NCBI GenBank assembly: GCA_002724635.1
Contig: PBPM01000084.1
Location: 1-53,335 of the forward strand
Source: Rhodospirillaceae bacterium
GTDB lineage: Bacteria > Pseudomonadota > Alphaproteobacteria > UBA6615
Length of the DNA: 53,335 bases
Direction of reading: 5' to 3'
A program made the translations under genes and the position numbers. Shown here in pieces: positions 30,221-47,488 of this stretch (the first letter of the stretch is position 1; every line of letters starts with the position of its first letter). The notes beneath the pieces are model-generated. The model searched no databases, was not told where the DNA came from, and saw only the letters and a list, made by a program, of their open reading frames with translations.

Positions 30221-31903
30221 ATGGCGAAAATGACCGGTGCACAGGTGATGGCTGATATGCTCAAGGGCTACGGTGTTACCCATATCTTCTACGTTCCGGC
30301 GGTGCTGCGCACTACCATGGTGGAACTCGAAAAACGCACTGATATCAAACGTTTGCATGTACATTCCGAAGCAACGTCTGCCTACATGGCGGACGGCTAT
30401 GCCCGCGCCACCGGGAAGCCCGGTGTCTGCATGGCCCAGGTCATCGGCGCGCTGAACCTCGCCGCCGGCCTGCGTGATGCTTGGCTCGCTAAGGCGCCGG
30501 TGATCGCCATGACCGGCGGCCGCGATCCGAACACCAAGTTCCGTGGCGTCTATCAGGAAGTGGACGACGTGCCAGCTTTCGAACCCGTGACCAAGTTTAA
30601 TGCCACCGTCGACGAGGTCCACCGGTTCCCGGACATGGTCCGCCAGGCCTTCCGCGAGGCGACGACGGGTACCCCGGGCCCGGTCCATCTGCAGTTCCGC
30701 GGCAATGAGGGCCAGATAGACGCCGAGGAGGCGGATATGGAAGCGATGGTTGAGGCGGCGTTCGCGCAGACCCCTGCCTATCGGCCGGAGCCGTCGGAAG
30801 ATTCGTTGCGTGCCGCGATGGCGGCGATCGAGAGCGCCGAGCGTCCGATCATCGTCGCCGGCGGCGGTGTCCGCGCATCGGGCGCGCAGGCCGACGTGGT
30901 AGCGCTGGCCGAGCGGCTGAACATTCCGGTTGCGACCTCGCTCAATGGCAAGGATGCGATCCCGGCCAATCATCCGCTGTCCGTGGGCGTGGTCGGCACC
31001 TATTCGCGCGAGAGTGCCAACATCATCGTCAACGAGGCGGATCTAGTCGTCTATATAGGCTCATCGACCGGCGGCATGGTCACCCATTTCTGGGCGGTGC
31101 CGAAGATCGGTACGCCGGTCGTTCATATTGATATCGAGCCTGCCGAGATCGGCCGCAACTACCCGGTAGTGGCCGGCGTGCAGGCCGACGCGAAGGTCGC
31201 GCTAACTCGGATGCTGGCCATGACCAACGCCGAGTCCGCCGGCCGGCGCACGGTCTGGGCGGCGCGTGCGGCGGAGTTGGATCAGCAGTGGCGCGACAAG
31301 TACAACGACCTGCTCACCTCCGACGAGGTACCGATGCGTCCCGAGCGCATCTGCAAGGAGTTATCTGATCATCTGCCGAGCGATGCCATCGTCGTTGCCG
31401 ATACCGGCCATACCGGCATGTGGATGGGGGGCATGTTCGACCTGACCTCACCCGAGCAGAGTTATATGCGCTCGGCTGGCCATCTCGGCTGGGCCTTCTC
31501 GGCGGCGCTGGGAGCGAAGTGCGGAGTGCCGGAGCGTCCGGTCTTCTGTTTCACCGGCGATGCGGGGTTCTGGTACCACATCGGCGACGTCGAGACGGCA
31601 GCGCGCTGGGGAATCAACACGGTAACCCTAGTCAACAACAACTCGTCGGGTAACCAGTCGAAGCGTGGCTTCGACCGCGTCTATGGCGGCGAGCAGACGG
31701 ATGAGGCGCGCAGGCTTTGGCAGTTCACCGACGTGAACTTCGCTCGGATCGCTGAGGAGATGGGCGCGGTCGGCATCCGTGTCGAGAAGCCCGGCGAGGT
31801 CGCGGGCGCGATCCAGCAGGCCTTCGAGGCGGCGAAGACCCGGCCCGTCATCCTCGACGTTACCAGTGACCTGAACGCGTTGGCGCCGCTCGCGGTCAGC
31901 TGA
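30221..31903 (+). CDS. Thiamine-diphosphate-dependent enzyme (acetolactate-synthase-like)
   Basis: A 560-residue three-domain ThDP enzyme. The N-terminal pyrimidine-binding domain contains the catalytic Glu50 (HVHSEATSAYMADGYAR), a central domain follows (IIVAGGGVRASGA), and the C-terminal domain has the ThDP/Mg motif beginning GDAGFWYHIGDVE and ending VNNNSSGN. No regulatory ilvN-like gene is nearby, so this is more likely a catabolic carboligase, lyase or 2-keto-acid decarboxylase than biosynthetic acetolactate synthase. It leads a plus-strand run with a GST, FAH hydrolase, aldolase and reductase with gaps of 15-25 bp. Confidence 0.9.
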   Translation: MAKMTGAQVMADMLKGYGVTHIFYVPAVLRTTMVELEKRTDIKRLHVHSEATSAYMADGYARATGKPGVCMAQVIGALNLAAGLRDAWLAKAPVIAMTGGRDPNTKFRGVYQEVDDVPAFEPVTKFNATVDEVHRFPDMVRQAFREATTGTPGPVHLQFRGNEGQIDAEEADMEAMVEAAFAQTPAYRPEPSEDSLRAAMAAIESAERPIIVAGGGVRASGAQADVVALAERLNIPVATSLNGKDAIPANHPLSVGVVGTYSRESANIIVNEADLVVYIGSSTGGMVTHFWAVPKIGTPVVHIDIEPAEIGRNYPVVAGVQADAKVALTRMLAMTNAESAGRRTVWAARAAELDQQWRDKYNDLLTSDEVPMRPERICKELSDHLPSDAIVVADTGHTGMWMGGMFDLTSPEQSYMRSAGHLGWAFSAALGAKCGVPERPVFCFTGDAGFWYHIGDVETAARWGINTVTLVNNNSSGNQSKRGFDRVYGGEQTDEARRLWQFTDVNFARIAEEMGAVGIRVEKPGEVAGAIQQAFEAAKTRPVILDVTSDLNALAPLAVS

Positions 31904-31918
31904 TCTGACGGGCGGTCG

Positions 31919-32611
31919 ATGCCGATCATCCTTTATGACCTAGTGGGCCGTGACGATCGCCGGTTCAGCTCGAATTGCTGCAAGACCGTCTATGCGCTCG
32001 CCCACAAGGGCTTGGCGTTCGAGACCGCTCCGACGCGGTTTACGGACATCGTTGAGATCTGCGACGGTTTGTTCCAGACGATCCCGGTCATCCGGGACGG
32101 CGATTGTTGGGTTGGCGACAGCTGGGACATCGCAATCTACCTAGAAGAAACCTACGCCGAACTGCCGTCCGTGTTCGGCGGCTCAGCCGGGGTCGAATAT
32201 GCGCGCTTCATGGCGCAATGGAATGCCGCCCGCATTCAGCCGCTGGTCATGACAATGATCGTGCATGACATTTATGAGCGGCTCGACCCCGCCGATCAGC
32301 CCTATTTTTGGGAGAGCCGAGAGCAGCGGCTGGGCCGGCCGATCGACGAGGTGGTAAAGGGGCGCGAGGAGCGCCTGCCGGAGCTGCGTGCCCGGTTGGA
32401 GCCGCTGCGTAGTGTAGTGTCGGAGCAGCCCTTCCTCGGCGGCGTGGGGCCAGCCTATACAGACTATCTCGCCATGGCCCCGTTCATCTGGGGCCGGCGT
32501 GTGAGCCCTTTCGCGCTGCTGCAGCCCGATGATCCCGTTCATGCCTGGGCGCATCGCTGTCTAGACCTGTATGACGGGCTTATGCGCCACGACACGGATT
32601 TCGACTGGTAA
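31919..32611 (+). CDS. Glutathione S-transferase, LigE/beta-etherase-like
   Basis: A 230-residue GST with an N-terminal thioredoxin-like domain (ILYDLVGRDDRRFSSNCCKTVYAL, then TIPVIRDGDCWVGDSWDIA) and a helical C-terminal domain. The ordering and the motif GREERLPELRARLEPLR resemble the LigE-type beta-etherases that cleave lignin-derived aryl ethers. Similar GSTs also work as maleylacetoacetate-type isomerases. It starts 15 bp after the ThDP gene and is followed by FAH, fitting an aromatic or ether catabolic cluster. The substrate is inferred only. Confidence 0.82.
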   Translation: MPIILYDLVGRDDRRFSSNCCKTVYALAHKGLAFETAPTRFTDIVEICDGLFQTIPVIRDGDCWVGDSWDIAIYLEETYAELPSVFGGSAGVEYARFMAQWNAARIQPLVMTMIVHDIYERLDPADQPYFWESREQRLGRPIDEVVKGREERLPELRARLEPLRSVVSEQPFLGGVGPAYTDYLAMAPFIWGRRVSPFALLQPDDPVHAWAHRCLDLYDGLMRHDTDFDW

Positions 32612-36293: not shown

Positions 36294-36335
36294 AAAAGGG
36301 CGCGGGCGCGAGCCGGCGCCCTTTTGTGTTAAAAT
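36294..36335 (+). terminator. Rho-independent terminator after hupE
   Basis: AAAAGGGCGC (36294-36303) pairs perfectly with GCGCCCTTTT (36316-36325) around a 12-base loop, and the run continues TGTGTT. This separates the hupE transcript from the selenoprotein candidate downstream. Confidence 0.85.
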
Positions 36336-36359: not shown

Positions 36360-37460
36360 ATGATTGCGATGAACCTCTACGAAGAATCTGATTTCCCGGT
36401 TCGCGCGGATCTGGAGGCGGCCCACCAAACCCAGTTTGACCGGTTCAGCCAGCCCGGTACCTGGGGTTCGGGTGCCCAGCGGGTTGCGGTGATTGCGGCT
36501 GCGCGCCAGGCCTGTATCGACGCCGGCGTGCTCGAGGCGCCCGATAACCCGGGGGTTGGCAGCAACGAGGAACTGCCCAAGGTGGTCCGAGACATCATCG
36601 CGAAGATCGCCGTATCGCCCAAGGACATAGACCTCGACTTCTACAATGCCGCCATCGGTAGCGGCCTCAGCGACGCGGAGTATACCGAGATCGTCGGACT
36701 GGTCTCCTTCATCTGCAATCTCGACGTTTTCGCCCGCGGCATCGGCGTTACGCCCCGACCCCTGCCCAAGCCGCAGCCGGGCGAGCCGTCCCGCACCCGC
36801 CCGGAAGAGGCGGTTCAGGAACACGCGTTCGTGCCCACCATCCCGAACCCGCCGGAGGGCGGCGAACGCGCCAAGGCCATGTACGGGCCGTTCAAGCCCT
36901 ACATCATGCGGGCCATGAGCCTGGTCCCTGAAGAGTTCGCGGATCACATTGCGCTTGAACGTGCCCAGTATCTGCCGCTCGAGAAGATCATGGACTTTGA
37001 CTTCGATCATCATGACGGCCTGACCCGGCCCCAGGCCGAGGTCATCGCGGGACGGGTGTCTGCGCTTAACGACTGCTTCTACTGAACCACCGGGCATGCC
37101 CGGTTCCTCCGTGAGAGTGGACAAGCGCGAAACTTGAATGTGAACCCCCAGGCTTTGGTGCGGCCGGAACAGGATATCGGCGTGCCCCATGGTAACCTGC
37201 TGCTGACCTTCGCCGAGGCGGTGATCGGTACCGATCGGGCGTCGCTGGACGCGGCCCGCGCGACGCTCGCTGAGGCGTTAGGCCCCGCGGCGATTTCCGG
37301 TGCGTCTGCGATTGCCGGCAACTTTACAAAGAATGACCGAGTGGCGAATGCGCTGGGCATACCCGTCGATCCGCCGGTGCTCAAGGGTACGGAGGACCTG
37401 CGCGAACAACTCGGCCTGAACGACTATGCTTCGGCGCAGAACACCTTCCGGCACATGTAG
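36360..37460 (+). CDS. Candidate selenoprotein: AhpD-like peroxidase-related protein with an in-frame UGA at the active site
   Basis: One frame of 367 codons including the stop, interrupted only by UGA at 37083-37085. The 241 residues before it end RVSALNDCFY; after it the frame continues TTGHARFLRESG and closes with FTKNDRVANALGIPV and DYASAQNTFRHM. Reading the UGA as selenocysteine gives C239-F-Y-U242-T-T-G-H246. This is exactly the CxxCxxxH centre of AhpD/carboxymuconolactone-decarboxylase-fold thiol reductases, with the second Cys as Sec. Residues about 20-130 look like a first, cysteine-poor AhpD-like repeat (LSDAEYTEIVGLVSF, then VFARGIGV), and 185-366 the active one. Hairpins that could act as a bacterial SECIS directly follow the UGA. 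Ordinary gene calling would split it into a 241-aa and a roughly 107-aa protein. Alternatives are a nonsense mutation or a local sequencing error; the downstream part shows no decay, which favours Sec. Needs selA, selB, selC and selD elsewhere. Likely role: peroxide or thiol redox chemistry. Confidence 0.78.
37086..37122 (+). promoter_or_regulatory. Candidate bacterial SECIS element
   Basis: Two adjacent hairpins follow the UGA. The first is the perfect palindrome ACCGGGCATGCCCGGT (37089-37104). The second (37105-37121) pairs TCC with GGA and C109 with G117 across a U-U mismatch, and exposes the 7-base loop CGTGAGA. That loop begins 24 bases after the UGA and carries G then U at its second and third positions, as SelB-binding apical loops do in E. 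coli fdhF. The second hairpin therefore fits the bacterial SECIS pattern better; the first may set its position or compete with it. Confidence 0.55.
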
Positions 37461-38452: not shown

Positions 38453-38947
38453 ATGGCGGAAGACGATCTAAAGAGTTTCGATGTGGCTTTCGAGTGTGAC
38501 GCCACGGGCGTCGGCAAGATGCGCTGCGAAATGGACGTACGGCTCATGGTACCGGAGCTCATCGAGTGGGAGATGGCGTCCGACGAATATGGTTTCCACG
38601 GCGGCGACGGTTCAGCCCCGCTGCCCATCGCGTACTTCATTGCCGGGTTGACCTCTTGCTTGATGACCCAGATGCGGGCTTTTTCCAAGCGGCTGCGGGT
38701 CGATATCGAAAACCCGAAGATTTCGTGCCGCTGCGAGTGGGTGGCGACCCAGCGCGGCCGCGAGCCCTATGAGAGCGCCCCCAAGTCAATAGCTTTGGAT
38801 ATCTCCTTCGACACCGACGCGTCGCTCAATGATCAGCTGCACCTGATCGAGGTTGCGAAGAAAGGCTGTTTCATCGAGGCCATGCTGACCCCTCAGAACG
38901 AGATCGCCCACCGCCTCAAGACCTCCGACGGATGGGTGGATTGCTAG
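38453..38947 (+). CDS. OsmC-family protein
   Basis: A 164-residue OsmC/Ohr-fold protein. The two redox cysteines are Cys69 in AGLTSCLMTQ and Cys139 in AKKGCFIEAML, the spacing expected of organic hydroperoxide reductases. GDGSAPLPIAYFIAG matches the GGxGxxPxP..L segment of the family. It would reduce organic peroxides, using dihydrolipoyl or thiol donors. It lies about 1 kb from the AhpD-like selenoprotein candidate, so two thiol peroxidase-type proteins sit close together. The start is weakly supported by GGACGGAGACA. Confidence 0.88.
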   Translation: MAEDDLKSFDVAFECDATGVGKMRCEMDVRLMVPELIEWEMASDEYGFHGGDGSAPLPIAYFIAGLTSCLMTQMRAFSKRLRVDIENPKISCRCEWVATQRGREPYESAPKSIALDISFDTDASLNDQLHLIEVAKKGCFIEAMLTPQNEIAHRLKTSDGWVDC

Positions 38948-40001: not shown

Positions 40002-40889
40002 CTACTTATCCGGCGTCCACAGAATGTCCGTCGTGATTGAGCGTTCGTCTCGCATCTCCCAGCGACCGGCATCGACCCGCGCGATGAAATCCCCCAGCAT
40101 CTGGTTAAATAGCGCCGGCTCCTCTAGGTTGATGAGGTGGCCGGAGCGGGGCAGCAGCACCAGCGCGGATGAGTGGATGTTCCGCTTCATGAACAGGCCG
40201 ACGTCGAGGCATGGGTCGTCTTCGTCGCCGTTCATGATGAGAGTCGGCACCCGGAGCGCCTGCATCTCCTCGGCGGAATCGTAGAGGGACGGTCGCCCGC
40301 CTTGGACCGCCCGCATGGTATTAGCCGAACCCCTCGTCGAATGGTCGGCGAGTTCCTTGGCGAAGGCCTCCCAGCCGCGCGGATCCTTGTTGGCGTACTG
40401 CACGCGCGTCGGGCCGATGGCGTAGATCTTTGAGAACTCGGCCATGGTATCGGCTTCGATCCGCGACGCCACTTCCCTCGTCTCATCTGCAAACTGCGCA
40501 TGCACATCCGGGTGAGCGCCGTAGCCCGCCCCCGCGACGGTCAGTGACAGGGCGCGGTCGGGATACTGGAAGCCAAAGTGGAGCGCCGCGAAGCCGCCCA
40601 TGGACAAGCCGACGATGTGAGCCGCGTCGATCATAAGGGCATCGAGTACGGCGAGGATGTCGTCCACAGCGCGGAACTGGCCGTACATCTCGACGTCTTC
40701 GGGCACCTCTGAAGGCGGATAGCCGCAGGCGTTGAATGCGATTGCCCGGTAGTTCCGCGCGAAATGTCTGAGCTGCGGTTCCCAGCTTCGAATGTCGCCG
40801 CCGAACTCATGGACGAAAACGACGGGCGTACCGCTGCCATGCTCTTCGACCCAGAGGTTTACGCCGTCGTCGGTTTTAATGTGCGTCAT
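40002..40889 (-). CDS. Alpha/beta-fold hydrolase
   Basis: A 295-residue alpha/beta hydrolase of the haloperoxidase / 3-oxoadipate enol-lactonase-like group. FVHEFGGDIRSW gives the oxyanion region, the nucleophile Ser96 lies in GLSMGG, the acid is in NGDEDDP and the catalytic histidine in RSGHLIN. It converges with the isomerase gene (6 bp apart) and lies 27 bp after the crotonase stop on the same strand, so the two are probably one operon. A stretch of eight C residues (40903-40910) lies just upstream of its ribosome-binding region. The substrate is not known. Confidence 0.88.
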   Translation of the reverse strand: MTHIKTDDGVNLWVEEHGSGTPVVFVHEFGGDIRSWEPQLRHFARNYRAIAFNACGYPPSEVPEDVEMYGQFRAVDDILAVLDALMIDAAHIVGLSMGGFAALHFGFQYPDRALSLTVAGAGYGAHPDVHAQFADETREVASRIEADTMAEFSKIYAIGPTRVQYANKDPRGWEAFAKELADHSTRGSANTMRAVQGGRPSLYDSAEEMQALRVPTLIMNGDEDDPCLDVGLFMKRNIHSSALVLLPRSGHLINLEEPALFNQMLGDFIARVDAGRWEMRDERSITTDILWTPDK

Positions 40890-40916
40890 CGTTCGGTCCC
40901 CGCCCCCCCCGGAGCC

Positions 40917-41708
40917 TCAGCCCTTCTTCTCCATCGCTTTTAAAAGCGCATTAACTGCGTCGTCATGCTCGCTGGTGTGATGGGCCAGTGCCTGGAAGGC
41001 GGCGGCCATGTCGAGTACCGTCTCGAGGCGTGAATGCATGCCCTCGCGCAGCAGTTTTTTCGACATACGCAACGAATGGCCCGGATTGGCAGCGATCTTG
41101 CCGGCTAGGATATGTGCCTCATCCATCAGGCTCTCATGGGGTACCACCTGTGAGATCAGGCCGCAGGCGAGCGCCTCCTCGGCGCCAATCATGTCGCCGG
41201 TAAAGGTCATCTCTGCGGCCTTGGACATGCCCACCAGCTTCGGCAGCAGGAACGCGCCGCCGTCGCCGGAGATGATGCCAAGTTTGACGAAGCTCTCAGC
41301 GAAGCGCGCCTTCTCCGACGCGATCCGGATGTCACACATGCAGGCGAGATCGCAGCCCGCGCCCACGGCCGCGCCGTTCACGGCGGCGATAGTTGGAACT
41401 TCGAGATTGTATAGGGTCAGGGGGATATTGTGAATATCGCGCTTATAGTTGTTACGGATCTGGTAGGGTCCACCTTTGGATAGGCCCTTGCGGTCGCGCA
41501 TGTCTTTTACATTCCCGCCTGCCGAGAAAGCACTGCCGGCACCTGTCAGGATCACACATTTCACGCCATCGTCGCGGCTGATCCGATCCGTGGCGTTAAG
41601 GAAGGCTTCATACTGGCTTTCGCCCGATAGCGGGTTGCGGGCATCGGGTTGATTCATCTTCAGGGTGACGACCGCGCCGTCCTGTTCGTAGATAAGAAAA
41701 TCACTCAT
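40917..41708 (-). CDS. Enoyl-CoA hydratase/isomerase family protein
   Basis: A 263-residue crotonase-fold protein. AFSAGGNVKDM forms the first oxyanion-hole segment, and NGAAVGAGCDLACMCDIRIAS the second. A catalytic glutamate candidate lies in FAESFVKLG; the second position usually acidic in hydratases reads ISGDGG, so an Asp may serve. It acts on acyl-CoA thioesters. The start has a strong GGGAGGACG site. It is co-directional with the alpha/beta hydrolase, suggesting an acyl-CoA or ring-cleavage pathway together. Confidence 0.9.
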   Translation of the reverse strand: MSDFLIYEQDGAVVTLKMNQPDARNPLSGESQYEAFLNATDRISRDDGVKCVILTGAGSAFSAGGNVKDMRDRKGLSKGGPYQIRNNYKRDIHNIPLTLYNLEVPTIAAVNGAAVGAGCDLACMCDIRIASEKARFAESFVKLGIISGDGGAFLLPKLVGMSKAAEMTFTGDMIGAEEALACGLISQVVPHESLMDEAHILAGKIAANPGHSLRMSKKLLREGMHSRLETVLDMAAAFQALAHHTSEHDDAVNALLKAMEKKG

Positions 41709-44354: not shown

Positions 44355-45512
44355 ATGCTATTGATCTCCTTCGAGCCGTGCGAACTGCCGGCCGGCGCGG
44401 ATGCGCTGCGGGCCGAGGTGCGCGCGTTCCTGAACGAGGAGCTGGCGGACTTTCCGGTCCCCGCGCAGGCGCGCTCCTGGGGCGGTTTCGACGCAGAGTT
44501 CTCTCAGAAACTTGGGCAGCGCGGCTGGCTAGGCATGACCTGGCCGGCCCCCTTTGGGCCCGGGCGGACCGCGCTCGAGCGCTACGTCGTTATCGAGGAG
44601 CTGCTTGCCGCCGGCGCGCCGGTGGCGGCCCACTGGATCGCCGAGCGTCAGTCCGGTCCGCTCCTGCTGCGCTTCGGCACCGACGAACAGCGCGCGGCGC
44701 TGCTGCCGGGTATCGCAGCGGGTGAGACCTACTTCTGCATAGGCATGAGCGAGCCCGATTCCGGGTCCGATCTCGCATCGATCCGCTCACGGGCGGTACC
44801 TGCGCAGGTTGATGGGGAGAAGGGCTGGGTCGTCAACGGACGTAAAGTCTGGACCACCTACGCCCAGCACTCCCGCTACATGATCGCGCTCCTGCGCACG
44901 GGCGAGCCCGGAGAGAACCGCCACGACGGGACTACCCAGTTCATTGTCGATCTGGCGGCGCCCGGCGTGACCGTGCAGCCGATTCGTAACATGATTGGTG
45001 ACGAGGAATTCAACGAGGTTACTTTCGACGATGTGTTCGTGCCCGAGACCATGGTCGTTGGCGAGGTTGGCAATGGCTGGCGCCAGGTCACGGCGGAGCT
45101 CGCCTTTGAGCGCAGCGGCCCGGACCGTTTCCTGAGCGCGTTCGCGCTCCTCAAGGCGTTGGTTGCCGTCGCGGGTGAGAAACCCTCGGACGCCGCTGCC
45201 GCGGCGATCGGGCGGCTGCACGCTCATCTCGCGATCCTGCGCGCCATGTCCCTGTCCGTCGCGGCCCAGCTGGACGCTGGCGCGGAGCCGGTGCTGGAGG
45301 CGGCCTTCGTCAAGGACCTGGGTGTCAACTTCGAGAAGTCGATCCCGGAGATCGCCCACCAGGTAATCGGCGCGTCGCCGCGGATCGACGGTGGCAGCGA
45401 CTTTGAACAGGCACTCGCCTATGTGCAGCAGGCGTGCGTGTCCTTCTCCCTGCGCGGCGGCACGACTGAAATTATGCGCGGCGTCATTGCGCGGGGGCTG
45501 GGGTTGCGATGA
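44355..45512 (+). CDS. Acyl-CoA dehydrogenase, subunit 1
   Basis: A 385-residue flavoprotein that introduces an alpha-beta double bond into an acyl-CoA. MSEPDSGSDLASIRSRA, KVWTTYAQHSRYM and the FAD-contact region are typical, and the C-terminus has GGTTEIMRGVIARGLG with the candidate catalytic Glu. Start at ATG 44355 is favoured by GAGGGTACAT; an earlier in-frame ATG would add 24 residues without a ribosome site. It overlaps the next gene by 4 bp. The pairing of a full-length and a short ACAD is typical of heterotetrameric enzymes acting on bulky CoA esters, as in steroid side-chain degradation. Confidence 0.92.
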   Translation: MLLISFEPCELPAGADALRAEVRAFLNEELADFPVPAQARSWGGFDAEFSQKLGQRGWLGMTWPAPFGPGRTALERYVVIEELLAAGAPVAAHWIAERQSGPLLLRFGTDEQRAALLPGIAAGETYFCIGMSEPDSGSDLASIRSRAVPAQVDGEKGWVVNGRKVWTTYAQHSRYMIALLRTGEPGENRHDGTTQFIVDLAAPGVTVQPIRNMIGDEEFNEVTFDDVFVPETMVVGEVGNGWRQVTAELAFERSGPDRFLSAFALLKALVAVAGEKPSDAAAAAIGRLHAHLAILRAMSLSVAAQLDAGAEPVLEAAFVKDLGVNFEKSIPEIAHQVIGASPRIDGGSDFEQALAYVQQACVSFSLRGGTTEIMRGVIARGLGLR

Positions 45513-46486
45513 CCGACGAACGCGCACTAATCGCCGAAACCTGCGACCGGCTATTCGCTGAACAGCTCGACGAGACCGTGTTCGCCGCCGCCGAGACCGG
45601 CATATTTCCGCAACGCCTGTGGGACGCTATTACGGATAATGGGCTTGACCGAATTCTGATGCCGGATGACCGGGATGGTAGCGGGCTCGGCTGGGAGGAC
45701 GCCCATGTCGTGCTGCTGGCGGCGGGGCGGCACGCCGCACCTGTGCCTCTGGCCGAGGCGATCGCGGCGGGCTGGTTACTGTGCCGTGCCGGTGTGGAAA
45801 TTCCCGACGGGATCCTTTCCCTCGGGACGCCCATGGTTGGCGGCGGGATCGAGGTGCCTTGGGGACGACACGCAGCCCATGCGGTCGTCGCGGACGCCGA
45901 TGGTGCTCGCTGTATCTCTCTGGAAGGTGCGGAGATCATGCACGACCGGAATATCGGCCGTGAGCCCCGGGACAGTGTCGCGGGGGTCGATATCCCGGCG
46001 GTGGCGGACGATTCCGTTTGGGCCGCCGGGGCGCTTACACGCGCCTGCCAGATGGTGGGGGCGGCGGCAGCGACGCTGGATTTGTGTGTGGACTATGCCA
46101 ACGCACGTGTGCAGTTCGGCCGTCCAATCGGACGGTTCCAGGCGATTCAGCAGCAACTGGCGGTAATGGCCTCCGAGGTGGCCGCGGACGGCGTGGCGGC
46201 GCGGGATGCCTGCCGAGCGGTCGACGCGGGCGGCGATATCCACTTGGCGGCAGCGTCGGCGAAGATCCGCAGCGGTGAAGCGGCCGGCAAGGCCGCGAAC
46301 ATCGCCCACCAGGTCCATGGTGCGATCGGCTTCACCTATGAGTACCGGCTAAGCCACCTGACCCGACGGCTCTGGGCCTGGCGGTCGGAGTTCGGCGCGG
46401 AGAGCGAATGGGCCGGTTGGCTGGGCGCGCAGGTGATCGCGCGCGGTGCAGACCGTCTCTGGCCGGACCTGACCGACAGAGCCTGA
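45509..46486 (+). CDS. Acyl-CoA dehydrogenase, subunit 2 (short partner)
   Basis: A 325-residue ACAD-fold protein. The C-terminal part shows YANARVQFGRPIGRFQAIQQQLA and AHQVHGAIGFTYEYRLSHLTRRLWAW, while the N-terminal and middle domains are shortened (full ACADs have about 380 residues). The GTxE-type catalytic Glu of the partner is missing. It is therefore likely to work only as part of an alpha2-beta2 complex with the preceding gene, with which it overlaps (ATGA). Confidence 0.88.
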   Translation: MTDERALIAETCDRLFAEQLDETVFAAAETGIFPQRLWDAITDNGLDRILMPDDRDGSGLGWEDAHVVLLAAGRHAAPVPLAEAIAAGWLLCRAGVEIPDGILSLGTPMVGGGIEVPWGRHAAHAVVADADGARCISLEGAEIMHDRNIGREPRDSVAGVDIPAVADDSVWAAGALTRACQMVGAAAATLDLCVDYANARVQFGRPIGRFQAIQQQLAVMASEVAADGVAARDACRAVDAGGDIHLAAASAKIRSGEAAGKAANIAHQVHGAIGFTYEYRLSHLTRRLWAWRSEFGAESEWAGWLGAQVIARGADRLWPDLTDRA

Positions 46487-46500
46487 CGGCACCCAAATTT

Positions 46501-46520
46501 CGTCATGCCCGGGCTTGACC
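46501..46520 (+). repeat. Short dispersed repeat, copy 2
   Basis: CGTCATGCCCGGGCTTGACC, one base different from the copy at 39114-39133. It sits 14 bp after the ACAD operon stop. Only one arm of the usual palindrome is preserved. Confidence 0.6.
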
Positions 46521-46651
46521 GGTGTATCTTGGCCGTAGGTGCCGAAGATGCGTGGACCTCGTTTAGGCATGGCGGTGTGCTTCTGCCGGAAGCACCGCTT
46601 GGTTGCGCGATACCCAGCCGATATGCTTGGCAGTTACTTAGGGGGAAACAC

Positions 46652-47488
46652 ATGCGGTTCGTCAGTTTCGTATCAGGCGGGAAGCCGACTTGGGGGCTCG
46701 TCTCGGGTGACGGCGTGATCGATCTCGGCGCGCGCGGCCCCCATGCCGTTCTGAAGGACGCCATCGCGGCTGGCGATATAATGGAGATCGGTGCGGCGGC
46801 GCACGGAGAGGTTCCCGATGTCGCACTGTCGGACATCGCCTTTCTGCCGACCATTCCCGATCCGACCCACATTTTCTGTGCCGGTAAGAACTATAAGGAC
46901 CATGTGACGGAGATGGGCTTCGAGATGCCCGACAATCTTTCGCTGTTTCTCAAGGCGAACTCGACGCTTGTGCCCCATGGCGGCGCGATGATCCGGCCGA
47001 AGGTGTCCGAATGCCTCGATTTCGAGGGTGAGATTTGCGCCGTGATCGGTCGCGAGGCGCGCCATGTCTCGGAGGACAATGCGCTGGATTACGTGGCCGG
47101 CTACACGATCATGGTCGACGGCTCCGTACGCGACATCCAGAAACACTCGGTGACCGCGGGCAAGAATTTCGTGGGCACGGGGCCGCTGGGCCCGGTGCTG
47201 AAGACGGCGGACGAGATTCCGGACCCGTCGCAGCTTCATGTAACCACCCGTCTCAACGGCGAGGTTGTTCAGGATTGCGGGGCCGATATGCTGATCTTCG
47301 ATATTCCATATATCATCGCCTATGTCTCGCGGATCACAACGCTGCTACCCGGCGACGTGATTGCGACGGGATCGCCCGCTGGGTCGGGCGCGGGGCGGAC
47401 GCCGCTCCTATGGATGAAGGCTGGGGATAGGCTCGAGGTCGAGGTGCCGAAGATCGGCAACCTGACCGTGGATATTGTCGACGAATAG
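46652..47488 (+). CDS. Fumarylacetoacetate hydrolase family protein (tandem copy A)
   Basis: A 278-residue FAH-fold enzyme of the short type. IFCAGKNYKDHVTEMG opens the catalytic domain, and DFEGEICAVIGREA holds the metal-binding E-x-E. The loop DVIATGSPAGSGAGRTP differs from the usual DVIATGTPxGVG of copy B: SPAG in place of TPSG. The start is ATG 46652, after AGGGGGAAACAC. It is 14 bp upstream of copy B; they are clear tandem duplicates. A likely role is hydrolysis of an acylpyruvate-type product. Confidence 0.9.
   Translation: MRFVSFVSGGKPTWGLVSGDGVIDLGARGPHAVLKDAIAAGDIMEIGAAAHGEVPDVALSDIAFLPTIPDPTHIFCAGKNYKDHVTEMGFEMPDNLSLFLKANSTLVPHGGAMIRPKVSECLDFEGEICAVIGREARHVSEDNALDYVAGYTIMVDGSVRDIQKHSVTAGKNFVGTGPLGPVLKTADEIPDPSQLHVTTRLNGEVVQDCGADMLIFDIPYIIAYVSRITTLLPGDVIATGSPAGSGAGRTPLLWMKAGDRLEVEVPKIGNLTVDIVDE

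Follow-up and report, generated by a model that had tools for sequence, protein, structure and literature searches.

Do positions 36360-37460 of the window (the whole stretch of 53,335 nucleotides analysed here, contig C78 of a 2.95 Mb, 137-contig assembly) encode a single selenoprotein, or is this a damaged gene, or a pair of neighbours that happen to share a frame? Two open stretches of the forward strand, in the same frame and parted by one UGA, were found on re-reading, and the coordinates and motif given in the initial annotation proved exact. Read with TGA as selenocysteine (Sec), the gene encodes 366 residues, contains one internal UGA at codon 242 (37083-37085) and ends with TAG (37458-37460). 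The UGA lies within the active-site motif C239-F-Y-U242-T-T-G-H246 (37074-37097, forward strand). The standard list of open reading frames gives two pieces, as had been anticipated for ordinary gene callers.

An open frame alone is weak evidence, since bridged frames also arise between ordinary neighbours: frames joined across a single TGA are present at 30221-32611, 40002-41708 and 45509-47488 of the window, and these are ordinary adjacent genes by appearance. Such true neighbours, as well as the two pieces of the standard list, would suit a reading in which a gene at 36360-37085 is followed by a shorter one starting from TTG 37134. This arrangement is very improbable, because one family model covers both parts, the UGA falls inside the AhpD motif itself, and the sequence from the UGA to the TTG is the most conserved stretch; it was rejected for this conservation across the junction. 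The case for one gene rests on the position of the UGA at the catalytic codon, on its conservation and on the hairpin downstream of it, and 36360-37460 is very probably a genuine selenoprotein gene with selenocysteine encoded by the internal UGA.

For profile searches the UGA was read as Cys. The translation matched the NCBIfam model NF041238 ('AhpD_rel_CFYUT, alkylhydroperoxidase-related (seleno)protein') over residues 14-358, corresponding to positions 1-357 of the 357 in the model (E 5e-111, 371.4 bits against a cut-off of 175), and the CFYUT/CxxU motif of this family is present as C239-F-Y-U242-T. One match thus spans both segments, bearing out the claim that the sequence past the UGA belongs to the same protein. 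The Pfam domain CMD (PF02627) was found at residues 211-255 (24.4 bits, cut-off 23), while the scores for TIGR01926, a peroxidase-related enzyme (40.4 bits), and TIGR00777, AhpD proper (13.9 bits), were below their cut-offs of 81.8 and 191.95, respectively. The protein carries the features of an AhpD-like member of the Pfam CMD superfamily, namely a two-helix motif with the dyad and with the His and the Glu of the proton relay, and with Sec as the second Cys of the dyad.

The family was known before this window was examined, given its description in 2005 and its equation with NF041238 in a later review. The 2005 paper on the Sargasso Sea selenoproteome (PMC1088965) described its hypothetical protein 1 from four Sec-containing sequences that have CxxU and a hairpin of SECIS-like form, and it also listed Cys homologues; a 2026 review identifies NF041238 as 'AhpD-related protein (hypothetical protein 1, Sargasso Sea metagenome)' with CxxU (PMC13188914). 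The window protein resembles this family in its full-length match, in CFYUT and CxxU and in the hairpin after the UGA. The AhpD-like 1 and 2 proteins of the marine GOS selenoproteome (COG2128, pfam02627; PMC2398784) have an AhpD-type CxxU centre as well, but they are classed as families separate from hypothetical protein 1, and the window protein falls under the TIGR01926 cut-off. The gene had been called unannotated, which holds for generic gene callers but not for NCBI, where a dedicated model exists for a family dating from 2005. A search of open papers found none that names CFYUT and no biochemistry or functional assay for the NF041238 family.

The UGA codon is conserved far beyond the window. 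NF041238 exceeded its cut-off in 27 of the 385 genomes of the class (49 hits, up to four copies per genome), and the next-best hits in the class scored 66 bits and below. Each of the 49 hits has exactly one internal TGA, and in the 27 that were read it is this codon. In a separate named collection, TGA stands here in 80/80 of the best 80 of 334 relatives, although one of the two search patterns specified Cys at this position, so that Cys forms were not selected against. One same-genus genome (G298, contig C9, 214157-216428, L053) carries a tandem pair of NF041238 genes with one TGA each, and the genome of the window (G000) contains a second copy of the family (C15:6-644; L052, L152) with the motif CFYUTNGH, cut by the contig end.

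A nonsense mutation that split an ordinary CxxC AhpD-like gene would likewise leave a frame interrupted by a UGA. There is virtually no chance that the gene is such a pseudogene, because relatives belonging to several phyla share the UGA at this codon, both halves are under equal protein constraint and genomes with NF041238 always have selA; for these three reasons the pseudogene was rejected. Compared with the two nearest relatives, the protein is 84% identical before the UGA and 85-86% identical after it, and third codon positions carry most of the changes on both sides. This equal constraint speaks against decay of either half, and where independent decay of the halves was looked for in the nearest relatives, neither was decaying. 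The initial argument that a chance nonsense mutation is unlikely at this codon is therefore upheld by the conserved UGA and by the equally constrained halves.

One expectation was not borne out in the sample. A Cys form had been expected in relatives that lack selenium genes, but none was found among the full-length NF041238 members sampled (the class survey and the best 80 of the 334 named relatives); all of them have UGA, and those of the class survey are in genomes with selA. Over the class, selA exceeded its cut-off in 56 of the 385 genomes, including 27/27 of those with NF041238 (hypergeometric p 3e-26, ignoring kinship). As the 2005 paper lists Cys homologues, 'Sec-only' describes this sample. 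A phylum sample of 398 genomes contained no NF041238 member outside the genome of the window and, accordingly, no Cys forms.

The machinery for selenocysteine was searched for in the window's own genome family by family, and selA, selB, selC and selD, which the initial annotation had proposed as a check, are all present. The selA and selB genes are adjacent on contig C103. The tRNA-Sec gene (selC) occurs at the ends of C103 (L003) and C64 (L002), which share 97 identical bases; two selC genes were rejected in favour of one gene at a contig break, repeated on the 97-base overlap of the contig ends. This overlap would bring selA, selB, selC and a selD together in a single region. The selD gene was found twice, on C88 (L017) with an in-frame TGA in GGGUGCK, and on C64 (L018) inside a 776-residue open frame, which may be a fusion. 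The estimated contamination of the assembly is 6.15%, which leaves the linkage between the window contig and the sel contigs short of proof; for the same reason the two selD genes may not belong to one organism. The same pairing of the family gene with sel genes is found in two genomes of the same family with 1% contamination (G298 and G376). In seven other genomes (G007, G091, G123, G185, G227, G279 and G357) a copy of the family is located no more than about 5 kb from selA, an arrangement seen in only some distant members.

A SECIS-like hairpin is conserved after the UGA, as the selenoprotein reading had predicted. It extends from +21 to +39 counted from the U of the UGA (37103-37121, forward strand), is kept family-wide, and has GCUGCUC-CGUGC-GAGCGGC as its commonest form; its apical loop spans 37110-37114 and carries a G at 37111. 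In the alignment 84.6% of the hairpin cells are paired, against 30-50% when the pairing was slid. Covariation is modest, because the inner stem hardly varies, and codon usage is a sharper signal of the hairpin than compensatory changes. Just after the UGA synonymous codons are frozen (Leu CTC in 100/101, Arg CGT/CGG in 99/99, Ala GCG in 55/55 and Ser AGC/AGT in 99/99), whereas all six Arg codons are in use at an invariant Arg ten codons upstream. The stem of the window gene reads CCUC-CGUGA-GAG-U-GG, with a bulge in place of the 24-36 pair, as in close relatives, and folding of this single sequence after the UGA was no better than that of shuffles (z -0.38). An additional G+C-rich hairpin of 6 bp, immediately downstream of the UGA (37089-37104, forward strand), was seen only in close relatives.

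The frame would also be open if a variant code, or readthrough that needs no SECIS, gave the UGA a different amino-acid meaning (Trp or Cys, for example). This is highly unlikely, since the genome has complete Sec machinery, TGA serves as a normal stop for genes of the window, the UGA codon is followed by a conserved hairpin, and SelD on C88 also has a TGA inside its family match; this reading was rejected. The sel genes, the conserved hairpin and the conserved UGA support selenocysteine, as the initial annotation had proposed.

The structure of the protein was predicted with confidence (pLDDT 92.5), and its C-terminal half is like AhpD-like, peroxidase-related structures by sequence and by fold. 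The proton-relay residues Glu36/Cys48/Tyr50/Cys51/His55 of PA0269 (2O4D) correspond to Glu227/Cys239/Tyr241/Sec242/His246 with identical spacing, which agrees with the earlier claim that the UGA stands at the second Cys of the AhpD CxxC. Glu227 (codon 37038-37040, forward strand), Cys239, residue 242 and His246 are invariant in 22 sequences, and Tyr241 is nearly so. Equal spacing of the relay residues is shared with PA0269 and with AhpD of Mycobacterium tuberculosis, and a Tyr before the second catalytic residue with PA0269 (PMC3141380); unlike both proteins, the window protein has Sec for the second Cys and an additional N-terminal half.

The chain probably holds two AhpD-type halves. In a profile comparison the N-terminal half matched the C-terminal one with E 1.3e-4 but a probability of 53%, pairing the N-terminal CxxC of most members with CxxU, and the model of the N-terminal half matches AhpD folds weakly (E 0.14). 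An origin of the chain from a duplicated AhpD is likely. Two pseudo-symmetric AhpD-like halves in one chain would be a likeness to human Sestrin2 (PMC4674687), with which Foldseek aligned nearly the whole length at a TM of about 0.46; given the rmsd of 14-15, this likeness is a resemblance only. The active site of Sestrin2 is N-terminal with a single Cys125, while that of the window protein is C-terminal with CxxU. The N-terminal CxxC is present in 75/107 of the compared proteins, but the window protein, unlike most of the family, belongs to a group of 26 rows without it (support 100/96), which spans Alphaproteobacteria, Gammaproteobacteria and Myxococcota. On this tree the pattern fits loss of the N-terminal CxxC as well as its gain. 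A speculative and rather doubtful view is that NF041238 is an essentially Sec-only, sestrin-like double-AhpD family, in which the N-terminal CxxC and C-terminal CxxU halves normally exchange electrons, and that the clade of the window works without the N-terminal dithiol.

The product of 36360-37460 is in all likelihood a Sec-containing, AhpD-related oxidoreductase of the known NF041238 family, with Sec242 presumably inserted by SelB and with putative hydroperoxide chemistry. SelB and Sec-tRNA, guided by the hairpin 21-39 bases past the UGA, would insert Sec at residue 242, the position of the second Cys of the AhpD CxxC in the C-terminal AhpD-type domain. By analogy with AhpD and Sestrin2, from which the mechanism is derived, Glu227, Tyr241 and His246, together with a water, would keep the selenol reactive. 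The selenol would then attack a hydroperoxide, which is probably organic, and resolution of the product by Cys239 would give a selenenylsulphide for a cellular donor to reduce. The peroxidase assignment draws on distant AhpD-fold relatives, some of which, like PA0269, are weakly active (PMC3141380). The computation itself supports a single gene of this family with a conserved UGA and hairpin, Sec machinery in the genome, the relay spacing and the predicted fold; Sec insertion, peroxidase chemistry, substrate and reductant are putative assignments, and the peroxidase or thiol-reductase activity named in the initial annotation may be taken in the same sense.

There is also an appreciable, if smaller, chance that the protein is a real selenoprotein whose main role is not hydroperoxide reduction, and that it acts as a thiol-disulphide or AhpC-adaptor reductase or as a reductive dehalogenase similar to Bmp8. 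AhpD acts as an adaptor of AhpC, structures of the AhpD-fold debrominase Bmp8 were among the fold matches, and in close relatives, which share catabolic genes near the family gene, the selenoprotein gene sits among these; but the protein retains the five relay residues that make up a peroxidase-type AhpD site, and no conserved AhpC or dehalogenation neighbour occurs in the loci examined. The neighbourhood of the family gene in these loci indicated no function. In the window, a HupE/UreJ gene (Pfam) is located upstream, and a terminator-like hairpin between the two genes (36304-36321, forward strand), found by a consensus scan only, suggests a separate transcript for the selenoprotein gene. Downstream are a convergent SDR gene and an OsmC-like gene, with nearby counterparts in close relatives only. 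The OsmC-like gene (38453-38947), which in the closest relatives (L053, L054, L072-L075) also lies close to the family gene, encodes another protein of the thiol-peroxidase type and is possibly a chance neighbour.

The relay-residue spacing, the probable two halves, the clade without N-terminal CxxC and the lack of a Cys form in the sample are what this analysis adds. The gene is a new sequence in a known family and changes no concept; what ordinary callers split is recognised here as one complete selenoenzyme gene, from an alphaproteobacterial lineage that metagenome assemblies have made known. UGA is used by all full-length members examined, which makes the family a reasonable subject for the question of why certain redox enzymes do not fall back to Cys.
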